The position numbers were made by a program, and so were the translations under genes. Of a stretch of DNA of 64,000 nucleotides, positions 39,802 through 57,122 are shown piece by piece; position 1 is the stretch's first letter, and each line of letters begins with the position of its first letter. The stretch spans positions 1,815,801-1,879,800 of the forward strand of contig NZ_LT977071.1 in assembly GCF_900250075.1 (NCBI RefSeq). Reading direction: 5' to 3'. The notes under the pieces are model-generated. The model was given only the letters and a program-made list of their open reading frames with translations. It was not told the DNA's origin and ran no database searches. The DNA is from Cupriavidus taiwanensis (GTDB taxonomy: Bacteria; Pseudomonadota; Gammaproteobacteria; Burkholderiales; Burkholderiaceae).

Positions 39802-41202
39802 ATGGCCGACCAGCGCAACAACCCACCGCCGCGCCCCCACTCGCTGACCCCCGCCCCGCTGCGCCAACCCCAGGGCGAGGGGCTGGTGCAGCGCCCGCAG
39901 CCGGTCGCCGTGCCGCTGTGGCATATCGTGCCGCGCATGGCGGGCTACGGCGTGGTGCTGTTCATCATCTGGGCCGTGCTGACGATCATGTTTCCAAATG
40001 TGTTTACGCGCTCGTCGGAACGCGCGGTGGTGAACAGCCCCGTCAGCCTGGTGACGTCGCCGGTGGAGGGCGTGGTGATGAAGCAGATGGTGGCCGCGGG
40101 CCAGCCGTTCACGGCCAACCAGGCGCTGATGGTGGTGCAGAACCCCAACATCGACCGTTCGCTGCTGGTCGACCTGACCGGCAAGAAGCTCGACAACCAG
40201 CAGCGCTATGACTCGGCCAAGGCGCGGCTGGAAAGCAACCGACGGCTGATGGCTGCCACCGACCAGGACCTGCAGCGCTACAACAGCGCCGCGCAGCGCG
40301 AGCATGCCGCGCGCGTGCGCGCGCTGGAAGCGCGGCTGGCTTCGGCCAAGGCGCAGGAAGACCAGCAGCAGGAAGTGGTCAACCGCAACCAGGGCATGCA
40401 GTGGGCCGGCGCGGTCAGCGAGGCCTATACCAATGCCTCGCGCTACCAGCTGTCGATGCTGTCCAACGCCAAGGCCGCGGCCAAGGCCGAGCTCGACAAT
40501 GCCATCGGCGACAGCCAGGCGTCGCGCAACAAGGTCTATGCGTCGTCCACCGACGGCCCCAGCGCCACGCTCGCGCAGCGCCGCCAGGTGCTGGGGGCGG
40601 AAGCGGCACAGCTGACGGCGGAGCTGGAGCAGCTGGAAGCCTACGGCAAGTCGGTCGACGCAATGATCGCGACCGAGCAGGAACGCATCGACCGTCTCTC
40701 CAACCTTGAGATCCGCTCGCCCGAGCCCGGCACCATCGAAGACCTGATCGCGCAGCCGGGCATGCGCGTCGCCGCCGGCGCCACCCTGGCGCGCGCCAGC
40801 AACTGCGCGCAGACGCGCGTGGTGGCGGTGTTCCCGCGCAGCCTCAGCGACAACCTGCTGCCCGGTGCGCGCCTGAACGTGCAGGTCGACGGCGTGCCCA
40901 CCGCGCTGCCGGCATCGGTGGCCGAGGTGCTGCCGCGCGCGCCGGACGGCGACCAGGCGCGCTACTTCGTGCCGTTCCCGCCGATCGAGAAGAACGAGAT
41001 CTACGTGATCGCCAAGCTCGACCGCCCGCTGGGCAACCTGCCGGCCAAGGCCGGCGCGGCGTCGGGCAGCGCGGCCGCGCCCGCTACCGCAGGCACGGCA
41101 GCGGCGGCGGCGCCGGCGCAGTCCGGACACTGCGGCATGGGCCGCTGGGCCCGCGTCACGCTGAACCAGAGCTGGCTGGGCCAGCTGCGGGCCTCGCTGT
41201 AA
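39802..41202 (+). CDS. HlyD-family periplasmic adaptor of the polysaccharide locus
   Basis: Protein of 466 residues. A Pro-rich cytoplasmic start (1-40) is followed by one membrane helix (about 47-65). Then come a biotinyl-lipoyl half (SPVEGVVMKQMVAAGQPF), a coiled-coil region (about 125-300) and the second half IRSPEPGTIEDLIAQPGMRVAAGATL, with an Ala-rich stretch and an unusual Cys near the end. This is membrane fusion protein architecture, like Alg44- or BgsB-type partners of glycosyltransferases. ATG 39802 has GGAG nine bases upstream. Its neighbours suggest it links the inner-membrane synthase to the outer-membrane channel. Confidence 0.82.
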   Translation: MADQRNNPPPRPHSLTPAPLRQPQGEGLVQRPQPVAVPLWHIVPRMAGYGVVLFIIWAVLTIMFPNVFTRSSERAVVNSPVSLVTSPVEGVVMKQMVAAGQPFTANQALMVVQNPNIDRSLLVDLTGKKLDNQQRYDSAKARLESNRRLMAATDQDLQRYNSAAQREHAARVRALEARLASAKAQEDQQQEVVNRNQGMQWAGAVSEAYTNASRYQLSMLSNAKAAAKAELDNAIGDSQASRNKVYASSTDGPSATLAQRRQVLGAEAAQLTAELEQLEAYGKSVDAMIATEQERIDRLSNLEIRSPEPGTIEDLIAQPGMRVAAGATLARASNCAQTRVVAVFPRSLSDNLLPGARLNVQVDGVPTALPASVAEVLPRAPDGDQARYFVPFPPIEKNEIYVIAKLDRPLGNLPAKAGAASGSAAAPATAGTAAAAAPAQSGHCGMGRWARVTLNQSWLGQLRASL

Positions 41203-41225
41203 GCGCCCGCGCCAAGGAGAGCCGG

Positions 41226-42569
41226 ATGCGATTGCCGATCCCGACCGCGCGCCTGCCCCGCATGATCGCCGGCGCGCTGCTTCCCGTCCTGCTGGCGCTG
41301 GCGCCGAGCGCGGCGCGCGCCGCCGATCCCGCGCAGCAGGCGCTGCTGTCAGAAGGCTGCAAGGCGCTGGCCGACCAGGTCGCCCGCGCCGGCGGCAATG
41401 GCCCGCTGTTCCTGCCCAGCTACGAGCCCGCGCCCGGCGGCGAACCGCTGTCGCCGGCGCTGCGCAATGCCGCCTTCGTCTACGACAACGCGCTGGCCGG
41501 CATCGCGCTGGTCGCCTGCAAGCGGCCCGCGGAAGCGCGCCGCATTGCCGACGCGGTGCTGCAAGCCACGCGCCAGGACCGCCACTTCCGCGACGCGCGC
41601 TTGCGCAACGCCTACCGCGCCGGGCCGCTGCCAGCGGGCCCGGCGCCGCTGCCGGGCTGGTGGGACGAACCCAGCAAGCGCTGGTTCGAAGACGCCTACC
41701 AGGCCGGCACCGCCACCGGCAACGTGGCCTGGGCCGCGCTGCTGCTGCTGGCGGTGCATGACGCCACGCGCGATGCGCGCTATCTCGACGGCGCCGCGGC
41801 GCTGATGGGCTGGGTGCATGCCACCGTGCCCGACCCCGCCGCGCCGGCCGGCTATATCGGCGGCTTCTTCGGCCATGAGCCCAAGCAGATCCGCCAGGGC
41901 TGGAAATCGACCGAGCACAACGTCGACACCTATGCGGCCTTCAGCTGGCTGGCCAGCCTGCGCAACGAGCCGCGCTGGCGCGACGGCGCGGCGCGCTCGC
42001 GCGGCTTTGTCGGCGCCATGTGGCAGCCGCGCGAGGGCCGCTTCATCATCGGCACGCACGACGACGGGCGCGCGCCCAATGCCGGCCCGTCGGCGCTGGA
42101 CGCCGTGCTGTGGCCGCTGATCGCCTTCCCCGATCCGCCGCAGGACTGGCGCCGCAACCTGGCCTGGGTCGAAGCCAGGCATCGCGCCGGCGCCGGCTAC
42201 GGCTTCAAGGGCAGCCCCGACGGCATCTGGACCGAAGGCACCGGACAGGCCGCGCTGGTACTGCAGGCCGCCGGCCAGGCGCAGCAGGCCGCGCCGCTGT
42301 GGCCGCTGCTGCGGGCGCAGCGCGCGCCGTCCGGCATGCTCTACGCCACGCCGCAGGCGCGCGTCAGCACCGGGCTGTCGATCGGCCCAACCTCCACCAC
42401 CGAGGACTTTCACTACTTCCACCTGCCGCACCTGGGCGCCACCGCGTGGGCGGTGCTGGCCGCCGCGCGCTGGAACCCGTTCCGCCCGGGCGGCTGCCTG
42501 GAGCCGTCCTGCCCGCCGCCGGCCATCGCTGCCACCGCCGCCGCCAGCCCCACCCCCGACAAGGACTGA
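41226..42569 (+). CDS. Exported alpha/alpha-toroid protein, candidate polysaccharide hydrolase or lyase
   Basis: Protein of 447 residues with a signal peptide (about 10-32, ending ARAAD). Repeated helical pairs typical of six-hairpin glycosidase folds follow (AFVYDNALAGIALV, WAALLLLAVHDATRDARYLDGAAALMGW, TEHNVDTYAAFSWLA). Candidate acidic residues occur in YDNAL and STEHNVDTY. It would act in the periplasm on the nascent polymer, as BcsZ or AlgL do in other systems. The exact family is not recognised with certainty. Confidence 0.65.
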   Translation: MRLPIPTARLPRMIAGALLPVLLALAPSAARAADPAQQALLSEGCKALADQVARAGGNGPLFLPSYEPAPGGEPLSPALRNAAFVYDNALAGIALVACKRPAEARRIADAVLQATRQDRHFRDARLRNAYRAGPLPAGPAPLPGWWDEPSKRWFEDAYQAGTATGNVAWAALLLLAVHDATRDARYLDGAAALMGWVHATVPDPAAPAGYIGGFFGHEPKQIRQGWKSTEHNVDTYAAFSWLASLRNEPRWRDGAARSRGFVGAMWQPREGRFIIGTHDDGRAPNAGPSALDAVLWPLIAFPDPPQDWRRNLAWVEARHRAGAGYGFKGSPDGIWTEGTGQAALVLQAAGQAQQAAPLWPLLRAQRAPSGMLYATPQARVSTGLSIGPTSTTEDFHYFHLPHLGATAWAVLAAARWNPFRPGGCLEPSCPPPAIAATAAASPTPDKD

Positions 42570-42571
42570 CG

Positions 42572-44533
42572 ATGTTCGCCCTCTTCCTGGAAAACCAGAC
42601 GCTGCTGATCATCAACGGCGGCGTGCTGCTGGCCACGGTGCTGCTGTCGCTGCTGTGCCGGCACGAACGGCCGGCGGACCGCATCCTGTTCGGCGGCATC
42701 ACCGCGCTGCTGCTGGGCGTGTACCTGACCTGGCGCATCCGCGAAACCCTGCCCGACTGGCAGATGACCTTCGCCAGCGTGTGGGCCCATGTGTTCTTTA
42801 TCTTCGAATGCATGACGCTGGCCTACACGCTGCTGTCGATCGTGGTGCTGTCGCGCACCAGCAACCACACGCCCGATGCCGACGCCGGCGAAGCGGCGCT
42901 GCGCCGCGCGCAGCGGGTGCCGCCGGTGGACATCTTCATCGCTACCTACAACGAAGGCCTGGAGATCCTGGAGAAGACCATCGTCTCCGCGCTGGCGATC
43001 GACTATCCGGACTTCCGCGTCTGGGTGCTCGACGACACCCGCCGCGACTGGCTGCGCGAGTTCTGCGAGCGCGTCGGCGCCAACTACGTGACGCGTCCCG
43101 ATAACGCCCACGCCAAGGCGGGCAACCTCAACAACGGCCTGCGCCACAGCGCCGCCGCCGGCGGTGCGCCCTACATCCTGGTGCTGGACGCGGACTTCGC
43201 GCCCCATCGCAACATCCTGCTGCGCACCGTGGGCCTGTTCGGCGACCCGCGCGTGGGCGTGGTGCAGACGCCCCAGTTCTACTACAACGCCGATCCGATC
43301 CAGTACAACCTGCGCGCCACCGAATGCTGGGTCGACGAGCAGCGCGCCTTCTTCGACGTGATGCAGCCGGCCAAGGACGCGTGGGGCGCGGCGTTCTGCA
43401 TCGGCACCTCGTTCGTGGTGCGGCGCGACCTGATCGAGCTGATCGGCGGCTTCCCCACCGGCACCGTGACCGAGGACATCCACCTGACCTACCGGCTGCT
43501 GCCGCACGGCTATATCACGCGCTGGCTCAACGAGCGCCTGAGCGTGGGCCTGTCGGCCGAGGGCCTGCCCGAATACATCAGCCAGCGCAGCCGCTGGGGG
43601 CTGGGCACGATCCAGGTGGCGCTGACCGCCGACGGACCGCTGCGCGGGCGCGGCTACACCTTCATGCAGCGCCTGCACTATGTGCACGGGCTGCTGCACT
43701 GGCTGTCGCGCCCGTTCACGCTGATGCTGCTGGCGGGGCCGCTGCTGTACTGGTACTTCGGCGTCTCCACGCTGTACGGCGAGCCGCTGCAGTTCCTGGC
43801 CTACGGCCTGCCCGCGCTGGTGGCGTACTGGGCGTACAGCATCTGGATCACCGGGCAGCGCGCGCTGCCGATCTTTACCGAGGTGACGCAGATCGTCGCG
43901 GCGCTGGCGGTGACCGCGTCGCTGGTCAGCGCGATGTTCAAGCCGTTCGGCCGGCCGTTCAAGGTCACCAACAAAGGGCTGGACCGCTCCAAGCTGGTGA
44001 TCCACGGCAAGTTCGCCGCGCTCTACGCCGGCCTGCTGGGGTTCTCCGCGCTCGGCCTCGGCCGCGCGCTGGTGGTGGACCCCGATGCGCAGGGCCTGGC
44101 CTTCAACACGATCTGGACCGGCGTGGCGCTGATGCTGTACCTGGCCTCGCTGCTGGTGTGCGTGGAACTGCCGCGGCCGCGCAAGGAAGAGCGCTTTCCG
44201 CACCATGCCGCCGCGCTGCTGCGCGTCGACGGGCGCGAGTACCGCGTCACCACCCGGGACCTGTCCTGCAACGGCGTGGCCGTGAACACGCCGCTGGCGC
44301 CGGCCTTCCGCCCCGGCATGGAAGGCGCGCTGTGGCTGGCGCAGACCGGCTGGATCCCGTGCCGGGTGGTACGCCGCGACGGCCAGTTGCTGGGGATCGC
44401 GCTGCATACCAGCATGGCCGCGCGCCACGCGCTGATCCGGCTGCTGTTCACCGATCCCGCCCACAACATTGCCCGACAGGGGCAGCCCAAGCTGGCGATC
44501 TCGCGCTTCATGCGCCGTGCGCTGATGGGCTGA
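42572..44533 (+). CDS. Membrane glycosyltransferase (GT2, cellulose-synthase-like) with PilZ domain
   Basis: Protein of 653 residues. Two or three N-terminal helices precede a GT2 domain with processive-synthase motifs: Asp155 region (WVLDDT), DAD at 206-208, TED at 300-302 and QRSRW at 338-342. A C-terminal helix block (about 365-530) follows. The PilZ domain has RKEER (537-541) and DLSCNG (563-568), the complete RxxxR and DxSxxG c-di-GMP signature. It should polymerise a beta-glycan from a nucleotide sugar when c-di-GMP is high. No BcsB or BcsC gene is present, so it is not a standard cellulose operon. Confidence 0.9.
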   Translation: MFALFLENQTLLIINGGVLLATVLLSLLCRHERPADRILFGGITALLLGVYLTWRIRETLPDWQMTFASVWAHVFFIFECMTLAYTLLSIVVLSRTSNHTPDADAGEAALRRAQRVPPVDIFIATYNEGLEILEKTIVSALAIDYPDFRVWVLDDTRRDWLREFCERVGANYVTRPDNAHAKAGNLNNGLRHSAAAGGAPYILVLDADFAPHRNILLRTVGLFGDPRVGVVQTPQFYYNADPIQYNLRATECWVDEQRAFFDVMQPAKDAWGAAFCIGTSFVVRRDLIELIGGFPTGTVTEDIHLTYRLLPHGYITRWLNERLSVGLSAEGLPEYISQRSRWGLGTIQVALTADGPLRGRGYTFMQRLHYVHGLLHWLSRPFTLMLLAGPLLYWYFGVSTLYGEPLQFLAYGLPALVAYWAYSIWITGQRALPIFTEVTQIVAALAVTASLVSAMFKPFGRPFKVTNKGLDRSKLVIHGKFAALYAGLLGFSALGLGRALVVDPDAQGLAFNTIWTGVALMLYLASLLVCVELPRPRKEERFPHHAAALLRVDGREYRVTTRDLSCNGVAVNTPLAPAFRPGMEGALWLAQTGWIPCRVVRRDGQLLGIALHTSMAARHALIRLLFTDPAHNIARQGQPKLAISRFMRRALMG

Positions 44534-44571
44534 CCCCTGCTGCTCCCGTTTCTCTCTCTCCGGAACCATCC

Positions 44572-46353
44572 ATGCGAAGCCTGCCCCGTCCCCGCCGCCG
44601 TGCCCCCCTGCCGCCACGCCTGCTGCTGCCTGGCGCGCTGGTACTGGCGCTTGCCGCGTGCACGCTGGAGCCGCAATACCAGCGCCCCGAAGCCCCGGTC
44701 CCGTCGGCATGGCCCGACGGCGCGGCCTACCGCACCGCGCAGGCCAAGCCGGCCAACGGCGCGGCGCAGCCGGGCCAGCCGGCGCAGCCCCCAGGCCCCT
44801 CGGCCGCCGACCTGGGCTGGCGCGATGTCTTCGTCGACCCGCAACTGCGCCAGCTGATCGAGCTGGCGCTGGCCAACAACCGCGACCTGCGCATGGCCAC
44901 GCTGGCCATCGACGAGGCGCGCGCGCTGTACCAGATCCAGCGCGCGGCGCAGTTTCCCACCGTGGAGGGCAATGCCGGCATGGTGTCGCAGCGGCTGCCG
45001 CAACGGCTGCGCGCGGCGGGACAGTCGCCGCAGATCACCACCTACAACGCCGGCATCGGCCTGACCGCGTTCGAGCTGGATTTCTTCGGCCGCGTGCGCA
45101 GCCTCAAGCATGCCGCGCTGGAGGAATACATGGCCACCGAAGAGGCGCGCCGCAGCGCGCAGATCAGCCTGGTGGCGGAAGTGGCCAGCGCCTACCTGAC
45201 GCTGCGTGCCGACCGCGCGCTGCTGCAGCTGTCGCAGAACACGCTCAAGACCCAGCAGGACGCGGCGGAGATGGTCCGGCGCGGGCACCAGGTGGGCGCG
45301 ATGGCGCAGCTTGACCAGCATCGCGCGCAAACCCAGGTGCAGACCGCGCAGGTGGGCGTGGAGCAATACACCCGGCAAGTCGCGCAGGACGAGAACGCGC
45401 TGGCGCTGCTGATCGGCGGGCCGCTGCCCAAGTCGGTCACCGATGCCGGTGCCGCGCCCGCCAATCCGAATGCCCCCGCGCCGGATCCGCTCGACGCGCG
45501 CATGCTGATGCGCGAGTTCCCCGAAGGGCTGCCCTCCAGCGTGCTGGTGCGCCGTCCCGACATCCTCGACGCCGAGCACCGGCTCAAGGCCGCCAACGCC
45601 AATATCGGCGCGGCGCGCGCGGCCTTCTTCCCGCGCATCTCGCTGACCGGCGCGCTGGGCGTGGCCAGCAGCAGCCTTGCGGGGCTGTTCTCGGGCGGCA
45701 TGGCGTGGGTCTTCGCGCCGCAGCTGACGGTGCCGATCTTCGATGCCGGACGCAACCGCGCCGGCCTCGACGCGGCCAACGTGCGCAAGGACATCAACGT
45801 CGCCAACTACGAGAAGACCATCCAGACCGCGTTCCGCGAAGTGGCCGACAGCATGGCGGCACGCGCCACCTACGAGCGCCAGGTGCAGGCGCAGGAAGCG
45901 CTGGTGCGCGAAGGCAGCGAAACCCGGCGGCTGTCGGAGATGCGCTTCAAGAACGGCGTGGACGACTACTTCGGCGTGTTCGACGCGCAGCGCGAGCTCT
46001 ACACCGCGCAGCAGGCGCTGATCACCTACAAGCTGGCCGGGCTGACCAGCCGCGTATCGCTGTACAAGGCGCTGGGCGGCGGCTGGCGCGAACTGACCGA
46101 GGCCGCTCCGGGCGCCAACGGCGCGCCCGCCGCCGGCCCGCAAGCCGCGGTGCGGCCCCAGGCGGTGGCGCAGCCGCAGGCCGTCGCGCAACCTCAGGCG
46201 GTCGCGCAGCCGCAAGCCGTCGCACAGCAACTCGCGCAGCCTCAAGCCGTCACACAGCAACAGCCCGTCGCACAGCCGCAGCCAGCGGCGCAGGCGCCGG
46301 CACCGGCCCCGGCGACGGTGCAGCCGGCCGCTGCCGCCACTGCACCACGCTAA
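44572..46353 (+). CDS. OprM/NodT-family outer-membrane channel lipoprotein
   Basis: Protein of 593 residues with a lipoprotein signal (LALAAC, acylated Cys30). Two TolC-type repeats follow (first about 80-300; second from SSVLVRRPDILDAEHRLKAANANIGAARAAFFPRIS onward, about 325-500). After YKALGGGW, where the family normally ends, there is an extra tail of about 75 residues built from AQPQAV units. As no RND pump gene is adjacent, the channel most likely serves the HlyD/glycosyltransferase genes upstream. Confidence 0.88.
   Translation: MRSLPRPRRRAPLPPRLLLPGALVLALAACTLEPQYQRPEAPVPSAWPDGAAYRTAQAKPANGAAQPGQPAQPPGPSAADLGWRDVFVDPQLRQLIELALANNRDLRMATLAIDEARALYQIQRAAQFPTVEGNAGMVSQRLPQRLRAAGQSPQITTYNAGIGLTAFELDFFGRVRSLKHAALEEYMATEEARRSAQISLVAEVASAYLTLRADRALLQLSQNTLKTQQDAAEMVRRGHQVGAMAQLDQHRAQTQVQTAQVGVEQYTRQVAQDENALALLIGGPLPKSVTDAGAAPANPNAPAPDPLDARMLMREFPEGLPSSVLVRRPDILDAEHRLKAANANIGAARAAFFPRISLTGALGVASSSLAGLFSGGMAWVFAPQLTVPIFDAGRNRAGLDAANVRKDINVANYEKTIQTAFREVADSMAARATYERQVQAQEALVREGSETRRLSEMRFKNGVDDYFGVFDAQRELYTAQQALITYKLAGLTSRVSLYKALGGGWRELTEAAPGANGAPAAGPQAAVRPQAVAQPQAVAQPQAVAQPQAVAQQLAQPQAVTQQQPVAQPQPAAQAPAPAPATVQPAAAATAPR
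46153..46292 (+). repeat. Tandem AQPQAV-coding repeat in the channel gene tail
   Basis: About seven imperfect 18-base units (cgCAGCCGCAGGCCGTCG and variants) encode Ala-Gln-Pro-Gln-Ala-Val. The first four are regular; the later ones are shortened or changed (AQQLAQPQAVTQQQPV). Such runs change length easily by slippage. Confidence 0.85.
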
Positions 46354-54085: not shown

Positions 54086-54150
54086 TTCCCAGGCATCGCC
54101 CCACCGCAACATCAAGCAGCAAAGACTGACTACCGGACAAGGAAAGCATC

Positions 54151-56712
54151 ATGAAACTGATCATCGTCGGCCACGGCATGGTGGGTCACAAGTTCCTGGA
54201 AGCGCTGGCGGAAGCCGGTGCGGAAAACCTGGAAGTGACCGTGCTGTGCGAAGAACCGCGTCCCGCCTACGATCGCGTGCACCTGTCCGAGTTCTTCTCC
54301 GGCAAGTCGGCGGAAGACCTGTCGCTGGTGCCGGCGGGCTTCTTCGAGCAGCACGACAACATGCTGCTGCGCCTGAACGCGCGTGCGGTGGAGATCGACC
54401 GCGCCGCGCGCACGGTCAAGGTCTCCACCGGCGAGACCCTGTCCTATGACAAGCTGATCCTCGCCACCGGCTCCTATCCGTTCGTGCCGCCGGTGCCGGG
54501 CAAGGACCGCAAGGACTGCTTCGTCTATCGCACCATCGAAGACCTGGAAGCGATGCAGGAATGCGGCGCGCGCTCGAAGACCGGCGTGGTCGTCGGCGGC
54601 GGCCTGCTTGGCCTCGAATGCGCCAAGGCGCTGCGCGACATGGGCCTGCAGACGCATGTGGTCGAGTTTGCGCCGCGCCTGATGGCGGTGCAGGTCGACG
54701 AAGGCGGCGGCCGCATGCTGCGCCAGAAGATCGCGGGCCTGGGCGTGACCGCGCACACCGGCAAGAACACCGTCGAGATCGTCGACGGCGAGGACGGCAC
54801 CCATCGCATGGTGTTCGCCGACGGCACCCATCTGGACACCGACATGATCGTGTTCTCCGCCGGCATCCGCCCGCGCGATGAACTGGCGCGCGCGTGCGGC
54901 CTGGAAGTCGGTGCGCGCGGCGGCATCGCGGTGGACAACAACTGCCGCACCTCCGACCCGGACATCTACGCCATCGGCGAATGCGCGCTGTGGGACGGCA
55001 AGATCTACGGCCTGGTGGCCCCCGGCTACGACATGGCCCGCGTGGCCGCGCGCCACCTGCGTGGCGAGGCGGCCGAGTTCGGCGGCGCCGACATGAGCAC
55101 CAAGCTCAAGCTGATGGGGGTCGACGTGGCCAGCATCGGCGACCCGCACGGCACCGTGCCGGGCGCGCGCATCTACCAGTTCAGCGACGATCGCAAGGAG
55201 GTCTACAAGAAGCTGGTGGTGTCCGATTGCGGCAAGTACCTGCTGGGCGGCGTGCTGATCGGCGATGCCAGCGAATACGGCACGCTGCTGCAGATGATGC
55301 TGAACAGGATCGAACTGCCCGAGTCGCCCGAGTTCCTGATCCTGCCCGACAGCACCGGCAAGGCCCGCCCGGCGCTGGGCGCCGATGCCCTGCCCGACAC
55401 CGCGCAGATCTGCTCGTGCAACAACGTATCGAAGGGCGAGATCTGCGCCGCCGTCTGCGATGGCTCGACCAGCATCGGCGCGCTCAAAAGCTGCACCAGG
55501 GCCGGCACGGCCTGCGGCGGCTGCGTGCCGCTGGTGACGCAGATCATGAAGGCCGAGATGAAGAAGCAAGGGATGGCGGTCAACAACCATCTCTGCGAGC
55601 ACTTCCCGTTCTCGCGCCAGGAGCTCTACCACCTGGTGCGCGTGGGCAAGTTCATGACTTTCGACGCGCTGCTGGAAGCGCACGGCAACGGCCTGGGCTG
55701 CGATATCTGCAAGCCCACCGTCGGCAGCATCCTGGCCTCGTGCTGGAACGAGTTCGTGCTGAAAGAAGAGCACGCCAGCCTGCAGGACTCCAACGATTAC
55801 TACCTGGCCAACATCCAGAAGGACGGCACCTACTCGGTGGTGCCGCGCATGCCGGGTGGCGAGGTCACGCCCGAAGGCCTTATCGCCGTGGGCCAGGTCG
55901 CGAAGAAGTATGGCCTCTACACCAAGATCACCGGCGGCCAGCGCGTGGACCTGTTCGGTGCGCGTGCCGAGGAACTGCCCTACATCTGGGAAGAGCTGAT
56001 CGCCGCCGGCTTTGAGTCCGGGCATGCCTACGGCAAGGCGCTGCGCACGGTGAAGTCGTGCGTGGGCTCGACCTGGTGCCGCTATGGCGTGGGCGATTCG
56101 GTCGGCCTCGCGATCGAACTGGAAAACCGCTACAAGGGCCTGCGCGCGCCGCACAAGATCAAGTTCGGCGTATCGGGCTGCACGCGCGAGTGCGCCGAGG
56201 CGCAAGGCAAGGACGTCGGCGTGATCGCCACCGACAAGGGCTGGAACCTGTACGTCTGCGGCAACGGCGGCATGAAGCCGCGCCACGCCGAACTGCTGGC
56301 GAGCGATCTCGACCACGACACGCTGGTGCGCTACATCGACCGCTTCCTGATGTTCTATGTGCGCACCGCCGACCGCCTGCAGCGCACCAGCGTCTGGCGC
56401 GACAACCTGGAAGGCGGCCTGGACTACCTGAAGGCCGTGGTGCTCGACGACAAGCTGGGCATTGCAGACGAGCTGGAAGCCGAGATGCAGCACGTGGTCG
56501 ACACCTATGAAGACGAGTGGAAGAAGGCCGTGACCGACCCCGAGACGCGCAAGCGCTTCCGCCATTTCGTCAACAGCGACCGCCGCGACGACAACCTGGT
56601 CTTCATCGAAGAGCGCGGCCAGATCCGCCCGGCCACGCCGGAGGAACGGAAATTGCAGCGCTCCCGGCTGAGCCACATTCCCGTGGTGTCCATGCCCGCG
56701 AAAGCCGCCTGA
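54151..56712 (+). CDS. nirB: NirB, assimilatory nitrite reductase large subunit
   Basis: Protein of 853 residues in the order FAD/NAD(P)H-binding domains (about 1-400; IIVGHGMVGHKF, VVVGGGLLGLE), BFD-type [2Fe-2S] domain (Cys421, Cys423 in ICSCNNVSKG and CGGC), and sirohaem/[4Fe-4S] reductase domain with CVGSTWC (Cys637, Cys643) and GCTREC (Cys677, Cys681). It reduces nitrite to ammonia with NADH/NADPH in the cytoplasm. Full family length, no broken motif. AAGGAAAG precedes the ATG. Confidence 0.96.
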   Translation: MKLIIVGHGMVGHKFLEALAEAGAENLEVTVLCEEPRPAYDRVHLSEFFSGKSAEDLSLVPAGFFEQHDNMLLRLNARAVEIDRAARTVKVSTGETLSYDKLILATGSYPFVPPVPGKDRKDCFVYRTIEDLEAMQECGARSKTGVVVGGGLLGLECAKALRDMGLQTHVVEFAPRLMAVQVDEGGGRMLRQKIAGLGVTAHTGKNTVEIVDGEDGTHRMVFADGTHLDTDMIVFSAGIRPRDELARACGLEVGARGGIAVDNNCRTSDPDIYAIGECALWDGKIYGLVAPGYDMARVAARHLRGEAAEFGGADMSTKLKLMGVDVASIGDPHGTVPGARIYQFSDDRKEVYKKLVVSDCGKYLLGGVLIGDASEYGTLLQMMLNRIELPESPEFLILPDSTGKARPALGADALPDTAQICSCNNVSKGEICAAVCDGSTSIGALKSCTRAGTACGGCVPLVTQIMKAEMKKQGMAVNNHLCEHFPFSRQELYHLVRVGKFMTFDALLEAHGNGLGCDICKPTVGSILASCWNEFVLKEEHASLQDSNDYYLANIQKDGTYSVVPRMPGGEVTPEGLIAVGQVAKKYGLYTKITGGQRVDLFGARAEELPYIWEELIAAGFESGHAYGKALRTVKSCVGSTWCRYGVGDSVGLAIELENRYKGLRAPHKIKFGVSGCTRECAEAQGKDVGVIATDKGWNLYVCGNGGMKPRHAELLASDLDHDTLVRYIDRFLMFYVRTADRLQRTSVWRDNLEGGLDYLKAVVLDDKLGIADELEAEMQHVVDTYEDEWKKAVTDPETRKRFRHFVNSDRRDDNLVFIEERGQIRPATPEERKLQRSRLSHIPVVSMPAKAA

Positions 56713-56738
56713 CCGTGCCAGCAACCAAGGAGAACGTG

Positions 56739-57122
56739 ATGAGCCATCCCCACCATGCCGAAACCTGGACCGCCATCTGCACCGTACGCGATATCGTGCC
56801 CAATACTGGTGTGTGCGCGCTGGTCGATGACCGGCAGGTCGCCGTCTTCCGCATCGGCCGCGGCGACGAGGTCTACGCCATCGACAACTTCGATCCCAAC
56901 GCGCAGGCCGCGGTGCTGTCGCGCGGGCTGGTGGGCAACCTTGGCGAGCGCCTGGTGGTGGCGTCGCCGATCTACAAGCACCACTTCGATCTGCGCACCG
57001 GCGAATGCCTGGAGGCACCTGAACAGTCGGTCAACGCCTACGCCGCGCGCGTCTATGACGGCAAGGTGTGGATCGCCGCCGCCGCGGCCGTGCGCGAGGC
57101 CGAGGAAGAACTCGCCGCCTGA
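56739..57122 (+). CDS. nirD: NirD, nitrite reductase small subunit
   Basis: Protein of 127 residues with a Rieske-like fold but no cluster ligands: the positions that carry Cys/His in Rieske proteins are replaced, as in true NirD (FDPNAQAAVLSRGLVGNLG, SPIYKHHFDLRTGECLEAPE). It is the small partner of NirB. The start at 56739 follows AAGGAG; the frame is open further upstream only over nirB. Confidence 0.94.
   Translation: MSHPHHAETWTAICTVRDIVPNTGVCALVDDRQVAVFRIGRGDEVYAIDNFDPNAQAAVLSRGLVGNLGERLVVASPIYKHHFDLRTGECLEAPEQSVNAYAARVYDGKVWIAAAAAVREAEEELAA

Follow-up and report, generated by a model that had tools for sequence, protein, structure and literature searches.

A putative exopolysaccharide secretion operon of Cupriavidus taiwanensis that combines a PilZ-bearing synthase with a periplasmic adaptor and a TolC-class channel

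How does a polymer get through the outer membrane when its BcsA-like synthase has neither BcsC nor AlgE to rely on? The question is raised by four adjacent genes in a 64,000-nucleotide stretch of Cupriavidus taiwanensis DNA (NCBI RefSeq assembly GCF_900250075.1, contig NZ_LT977071.1, positions 1,815,801 to 1,879,800 of the forward strand), hereafter the window, which belongs to a genome of 6.77 Mb. These genes encode a HlyD/EmrA-type periplasmic adaptor, a secreted toroid protein here called GHx, a membrane-bound family 2 glycosyltransferase (GT2) with a C-terminal PilZ domain and a NodT/OprM-type outer-membrane channel lipoprotein (OMF). Sequence comparisons make it likely that the operon specifies a tripartite exopolysaccharide secretion machine, in which a synthase gated by cyclic di-GMP (c-di-GMP) would export a glucan via the adaptor and a dedicated channel derived from RND pumps. 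Its features, all on the plus strand and numbered by window position, are as follows.

39802..41202, +: HlyD/EmrA-type periplasmic adaptor, 466 aa (Pfam HlyD_3, 1.5e-10; AlphaFold2 (AF2) model)
40384..40419, +: RLS-type TolC-docking motif of the adaptor (R195, M199, S206; M replaces the published L), at the predicted hairpin turn
41226..42569, +: GHx, secreted toroid protein outside named families, 447 aa (fold predicted by AF2)
42572..44533, +: BcsA-like membrane GT2 synthase, 653 aa (Pfam GT2, about 1e-22; PDB match to BcsA, 2e-68)
44180..44449, +: C-terminal PilZ domain of the GT2, residues 537-626 (Pfam PilZ, 3.7e-13; RxxxR and DxSxxG)
44572..46353, +: NodT/OprM-type outer-membrane channel lipoprotein, the OMF, 593 aa (OEP, 1.5e-48; TIGR01845)
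46155..46281, +: tandem repeat encoding the variable PQAVAQ-like C-terminal tail of the OMF (TRF, period 18, 7.4 copies)

Conservation of the four-gene unit

The four genes are separated by gaps of 23, 2 and 38 bp, and the list of open reading frames (ORFs), together with Pfam and NCBIfam matches, bears them out where a preliminary description, made from the sequence alone, had placed them. That description had also found no RND pump, BcsB, BcsC or AlgE-type porin with them, which holds for the first three: no RND gene was seen adjoining the operon (ORF list read, nine window proteins scanned), and in the whole genome there were no matches to BcsB (PF03170; E. coli and B. subtilis controls behaved as expected) or to the BcsC porin (BCSC_C, PF05420; the E. 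coli control worked), AlgE not having been searched for. Nor did the ORF list and Pfam reveal an ABC transporter in the operon, the linked partner by which type 1 secretion is recognized.

A genome survey for the same gene order, which the preliminary description had proposed, supports the unit. Among 36 loci found in named genomes, 32 are from Burkholderiales (mostly Cupriavidus, with some Burkholderia, Ralstonia and Bordetella), and HlyD, GHx, GT2 and OMF follow one another in the same order and on the same strand in 30 of these; in the other two the contig starts inside GHx and GHx-GT2-OMF are in order (locus L033, with GT2 and OMF in pieces, was used for this count only). The four loci from Thalassospira, Marivita and Salipiger have a GT2 that is 38-43% identical and no OMF match, with a distant HlyD in the two Thalassospira loci. 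GHx was also found in 38 of the 299 genomes of a family sample (own genome included). Wide stretches from 13 of the other 37 contain all four genes in every case, one with its OMF match in two pieces, and shorter loci ending 5' of the OMF gene show HlyD-GHx-GT2 in 29 of 29, some genomes recurring between these stretches and the named-genome loci. Gene order is kept beyond chance.

The unit extends to Gammaproteobacteria. In the order containing genome G367, matches to the GHx of Dyella were obtained in 29 of 249 genomes, some of them very weak. Twenty gammaproteobacterial loci were read, eight of them close (57-76% identical to Dyella GHx) and 12 more distant; the complete operon is present in four of the close loci, and GHx stands alone in the other four and in all 12 distant ones. 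Compared with the window, the proteins of the complete gammaproteobacterial operons are 30-34% (HlyD), 51-53% (GHx), 54-58% (GT2) and 42-45% (OMF) identical. A class-wide sample of 369 genomes (own genome included) yielded GHx in two others, in both of which the 19 kb read gave no match to the synthase.

The adaptor and the outer-membrane channel

The adaptor is predicted to consist of one N-terminal membrane helix (residues 42-63) and a long alpha-hairpin (helices 120-201 and 207-241) in an AF2 model with a mean pLDDT of 76 and a pTM of 0.48. Its best PDB folds are the EmrA chains of EmrAB-TolC (3.3e-16), and its score on RND_mfp falls below the cut-off (36.2 versus 94.9). According to PMC3391258, MacA and AcrA bind TolC through an RLS motif (RxxxLxxxxxxS) at the hairpin tip, of which HlyD has an RLT version. 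A motif of this type, R-x3-[LM]-x6-[ST], occupies the aligned tip column in 83 of 83 operon adaptor rows (56 distinct sequences, the window being counted more than once and some rows coming from short loci that end 5' of the OMF gene), and the model places R195, M199 and S206 at the turn (202-206) between the two hairpin helices. In shuffles of the 80 residues around the tip, the motif arises in 0.35-1.4% of cases per representative. It is also present in four of six adaptors from relatives that have no linked OMF (Agrobacterium, Nitrobacter and Azospirillum, and as RLT in the putative BgsB), suggesting that these related systems may also use TolC-class channels. A cluster of another make, GH8-HlyD-GT2, lies on a Sulfitobacter plasmid (L080); its adaptor is without the docking motif and its GT2 without PilZ motifs.

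The OMF passes the outer_NodT model TIGR01845 (404.9 bits versus a cut-off of 210.05) and has a lipobox, LAAC, read by eye in the translation. Its affiliation was assessed in a tree of 25 operon OMFs (24 operon loci and the window) and 29 other channels, namely 26 (L150-L175) drawn from 52 OMF matches in four operon-bearing genomes and three second OMFs of Burkholderia. All 25 operon OMFs (21 beta- and 4 gammaproteobacterial) form one clade with a support of 100/99, which is unchanged when rows L084, L130 and L158 are cut at stops. In an enlarged tree, which gained 25 channels from operon-less genomes (L205-L229, of 38 matches, including the best match from each of the 12 such genomes having one) and lost 14 distant ones, the clade is retained (support 99/94, found in 100% of bootstrap trees) and takes in none of the added channels. 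As for its kin, of the 11 other channels whose neighbourhoods were opened, 10 adjoin an RND-sized gene and one an ABC gene; the six nearest non-operon channels looked up (L181, L182, L235-L238) all have the RND-sized neighbour, these neighbours being assigned by length and by sequence read by eye. In the simplest reading, the OMF came a single time from the operon of an RND pump and has long been at work in this one.

Two further observations concern the channels. The 18 operon OMFs listed span 501-639 aa, and some are without the PQAVAQ-like tail. In Burkholderia loci L012, L013, L015, L086, L088 and L089 a second, distant OMF gene (28-30% identical) lies about 1-6 kb upstream of the operon, and the three second OMFs placed in the tree are far from the operon OMFs.

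The distribution of the genes across genomes agrees with a dedicated channel. The gammaproteobacterial operons occupy a slot that we take, from translations, to lie between ybeY and corC, close to miaB and phoH at one end and to DUF4105 and CorA genes at the other; it holds all four genes in four genomes and GHx alone in four. The GHx-only slots show no HlyD match on one side and no GT2 or OMF match on the other. Over the whole of these genomes, three of the four have no GT2 match at 1e-30 (G896 has one, 31% identical) and three have no OMF match at 1e-60 (the single match of G888 lies outside the operon clade), the absence of the adaptor being established for the slot only. In the GHx tree, L127 and L131 nest among operon-bearing rows (forks 100/98 and 99/98), which indicates that the partners were lost and GHx kept. 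Within the genus itself GHx is missing from 11 of 40 other sampled Cupriavidus genomes; the best GT2 matches of all 11 reach just 31-33% identity, and their best OMF matches lie outside the operon clade. The synthase and the channel, and the adaptor where checked, thus come and go together, and GHx can persist alone.

Could the OMF nevertheless be a general channel, merely co-transcribed with the synthase while serving RND or ABC pumps, with the glucan leaving elsewhere? The genome has 13 OMF matches, 12 besides that of the operon, and at least two of the others stand beside RND-type genes; moreover, two alphaproteobacterial triads (HlyD, GT2 and GHx) as well as HlyD-GT2 pairs of Azospirillum and S. 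meliloti have no OMF match in the stretches read. We nonetheless consider a general channel unlikely, since the operon OMFs form a single clade across beta- and gammaproteobacteria, the OMF is missing where the synthase is, and no RND gene was seen in the six operon flanks listed in detail (L013, L083-L085, L126, L130; ORF lists read). A distant RND partner of the channel and adaptor, which the preliminary description had named as fatal to a duct for polysaccharide, is made less plausible by the two other OMFs of this genome whose surroundings were read, both beside RND-type genes; with 12 other OMF matches in the genome, the point is not closed.

The synthase, GHx and the likely product

A PDB sequence search aligned about 500 residues of the GT2 with BcsA structures (2e-68), and on the CelA model TIGR03030 it scores 389.3 bits, below the cellulose-synthase threshold of 699.1. 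The protein, which is 97-98% identical to its counterparts in the nearest named relatives (Cupriavidus species, C. neocaledonicus and C. necator among them), has the motifs TED, QRSRW, FCIGT, RKEER and DLSCNG. The last two are indeed present in its PilZ domain, as the preliminary description had stated in assigning it a full c-di-GMP signature, and the signature is kept across OMF-bearing operons: RxxxR and [DN]xSxxG are intact in 31 of 31 unbroken betaproteobacterial GT rows (L004-L035), and the gammaproteobacterial operon synthases have DxSxxG in four of four and RxxxR in three of four. The Agrobacterium and Nitrobacter relatives, which have no linked OMF, have lost both motifs and may represent a form of the system that is constitutive or under another kind of control.

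In a tree of 32 synthases (17 from operons and 15 others, near-copies such as L037 left out), the operon rows and the two alphaproteobacterial triads group together (99/100), apart from both the BgsA group and the BcsA group (100/96); several branches are long, and BgsA is a single row on a long branch. Within the operon/triad group the beta, gamma and alpha synthases form an unresolved trifurcation. As the operon synthases are not one clade with respect to the OMF-less triads, a synthase-adaptor pair can evidently do without a channel gene linked to it. Outside the operon set, the closest synthases are those of the Agrobacterium and Nitrobacter triads (46-47% identical) rather than BgsA (about 40%), which the preliminary description, citing BgsA/BgsB, had taken for the nearest analogy. 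A second PilZ-type GT2, 33-36% identical, is encoded elsewhere in the C. taiwanensis genome (L040 8857-11031; G000:C2, about 2650000) with no bcsB seen beside it, and possibly makes another c-di-GMP-controlled polymer.

GHx has no Pfam match (E 0.1) and no NCBIfam match. Its AF2 model (pLDDT 91.1, pTM 0.89) predicts an (alpha/alpha)6-toroid of glycoside-hydrolase-like fold, the structural matches of which (Foldseek, VIA) include cellobiose 2-epimerases, glycosidases, MmpH and dextran dextrinase. A single-sequence search of the PDB gave no match, a profile search gave weak GH76/epimerase matches (best E 0.017), and the Nitrobacter relative has a weak GH127 match (20.2 versus a cut-off of 24.9). 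An identity as a GH8 enzyme of the BcsZ type was considered and rejected: it has no Pfam support, and GH8 is not among the three families listed for 59 relatives (E 0.01), in a search that recovered the GH8 of Sulfitobacter as a positive control; GH8 is also missing from the 50 VIA rows shown for GHx, which is no proof of absence. Several relatives are named 'methylaspartate ammonia-lyase' in databases, which the predicted toroid fold does not support. Solitary GHx genes of gammaproteobacterial genomes (L127, L131-L133, L134-L145), at the ybeY-corC slot or elsewhere, belong to this same toroid family without a Pfam model.

Hints of the substrate and its control come from the neighbours of the operon in genus g281, where in two of three loci a gene read as galU (nucleotidyl transferase) lies 21 and 48 bp 3' of the OMF gene, with a divergent MHYT-GGDEF-EAL gene on the upstream side of the operon (L083 12599-14731; L084 12807-14876). 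GalU would supply UDP-glucose. Because of these neighbours and the intact PilZ motifs, the product is most likely a glucan derived from UDP-glucose and switched by c-di-GMP. Conserved c-di-GMP genes adjoining the operon were looked for and dismissed, a GGDEF-like motif having been found in only 3 of 49 loci scanned (L020, L083, L084).

The adaptor and channel might instead export a small molecule or glycolipid, the GT2 making a short glycan or glycolipid rather than a long exopolysaccharide, as could be argued from the likeness of the adaptor to EmrA, which serves an MFS drug pump, and from the sub-threshold cellulose-synthase score. Such an exporter is quite improbable given the processive-synthase motif QxxRW of the GT2 and its long alignment with BcsA, the lack of an energised transporter in the operon and the galU-like gene that follows it in two loci.

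Several observations weigh against a c-di-GMP-gated machine with a dedicated duct. Regarding the synthase, one of the four gammaproteobacterial sequences has K for the first R of RxxxR, all carry CED in place of TED, and only 28% of bootstrap trees set the operon synthases apart from the two alphaproteobacterial triads. The pTM of the adaptor model is only 0.48, M stands for the published L of the docking motif in 70 of the 83 rows, the window included (L is kept in the 13 from Gammaproteobacteria and genus g281), and at the aligned column the motif is missing in the Thalassospira (A for S) and Sulfitobacter adaptors. GHx stands alone in 16 of the 20 gammaproteobacterial loci read and is therefore not specific to this machine, nor a reliable marker of it in Gammaproteobacteria, while L132 and L133 branch outside the operon-bearing gammaproteobacterial rows, so that loss is not shown for these two. 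The galU and GGDEF neighbours are exceptional among the loci, BcsB occurs elsewhere in five of seven operon-bearing genomes tested (the C. taiwanensis genome and G436 being without it), and the 12 other OMF matches of the C. taiwanensis genome leave room for channel sharing.

Within the window, the operon is preceded by genes for a DctP-type binding protein and an MFS transporter, and a convergent HGSNAT-like gene, a TonB receptor and a Fur-family gene follow on its 3' side. Scans for promoters (one promoter-like site, on the minus strand, versus 0.3 expected) and terminators (three terminator-like sites versus 3.0 expected) were uninformative. Further along, a 962-aa minus-strand ORF without a Pfam match (54130-57018) lies opposite an 853-aa plus-strand ORF (54151-56712), a pair in which one member is likely to be a shadow ORF.

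Proposed mechanism and comparison with known systems

For the chemistry of the polymer, activation by c-di-GMP, the physical assembly of the parts and the role of GHx, we infer the following scheme. The GT2 would polymerise a glucan from UDP-glucose and extrude it through the inner membrane once c-di-GMP binds its PilZ domain, atop which synthase the HlyD/EmrA-type adaptor would build a periplasmic duct, its hairpin tip docking end-to-end on the NodT/OprM-type channel. The latter would have been recruited once from an RND pump and later dedicated to this synthase, and GHx may trim or edit the polymer in the periplasm or outside, in place of BcsZ. More broadly, we lean slightly towards an as yet unnamed class of exopolysaccharide machines, in which a GT2-PilZ protein replaces the pump in an RND/EmrAB-type assembly and is joined by an EmrA-like adaptor, a once-captured OMF and a new family of (alpha/alpha)6 hydrolases for editing. 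Since the docking motif is retained in the adaptors of OMF-less relatives (Agrobacterium, Nitrobacter, Azospirillum and BgsB), TolC-class channels, whether borrowed or owned, may then serve HlyD-type glucan systems in general. If this is true, drug-pump ducts have been reused for polysaccharide, and a new hydrolase-like family acquires a likely substrate context.

Among known systems, AcrAB-TolC, MexAB-OprM and EmrAB-TolC share with the operon the adaptor fold, the docking motif and a NodT/OprM channel, but here a polymerising glycosyltransferase takes the place where the inner-membrane pump would sit; there being no linked pump, this is not an RND or type 1 system. Canonical Bcs (BcsABCZ) has a comparable BcsA-like GT2-PilZ, but the C. 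taiwanensis genome has no BcsB or BcsC match, GHx has no GH8 match and the GT2 scores below the CelA cut-off. The triads of Agrobacterium plasmid pAt1 (L075) and Nitrobacter plasmid 1 (L076) consist of HlyD, GT2 and the same GHx (47-49% identical), with the tip motif of the adaptor kept; reading 16 kb around each gave no OMF match.

BgsBA of Sinorhizobium/Rhizobium, the proteins of which we take from their place on S. meliloti pSymB, also pairs a HlyD-domain protein with a GT2. It makes a mixed-linkage glucan, with c-di-GMP control reported and the c-di-GMP domain of BgsA described as novel in PMC9495663. The operon could be a BgsBA-type mixed-linkage glucan system to which a channel gene was added, as the same adaptor-GT2 pairing, the identity of about 40% to the putative BgsA and the RLT-type docking tip of the putative BgsB might suggest. 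However, Pfam finds a PilZ domain in the window GT2 and none in BgsA, the single long-branched BgsA row falls into a different group of the GT tree, which thus does not support BgsBA as the nearest relative, and the 13.6 kb read around BgsA yielded neither a channel nor a toroid gene, so that this origin seems very unlikely.

A literature search, mostly of open-access papers, turned up no description of a HlyD-GHx-GT2-OMF operon. The closest likeness is to XcsAB-TolC, a cellulose route proposed for Thermosynechococcus (Maeda et al. 2018, cited in PMC12430437) which comprises a PilZ-GT2, a HlyD-like adaptor, an endoglucanase and an unlinked TolC, the model being described there as unvalidated. 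The tripartite duct of the preliminary description is therefore not a wholly new idea; it is supported in part, by the joint evolution of synthase, adaptor and channel, by the RND-linked kin of the channel that were looked up and by the c-di-GMP signature kept in OMF-bearing operons. By description of the parts, and not by XcsA or XcsB sequence, both systems have a PilZ-bearing GT2 and a TolC-class channel for BcsC, and in the operon the HlyD-family protein with its RLS-type tip motif may play the adaptor between synthase and channel, in lieu of BcsB, and GHx the hydrolase. They differ in that the TolC gene of the cyanobacterial system is unlinked, whereas here the channel is in the operon and belongs to an operon-specific clade, and in that the endoglucanase XcsC would have as its counterpart GHx, with a predicted hydrolase-type toroid fold and no named family. 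A tractable genus, named cultured strains and natural gene-loss controls can turn an unvalidated secretion model into clean genetic tests, and a route so far only proposed in cyanobacteria gains a test case in soil bacteria. By this analogy, the operon would work like XcsAB-TolC but encode its own channel, with phylogenetic evidence of dedication.

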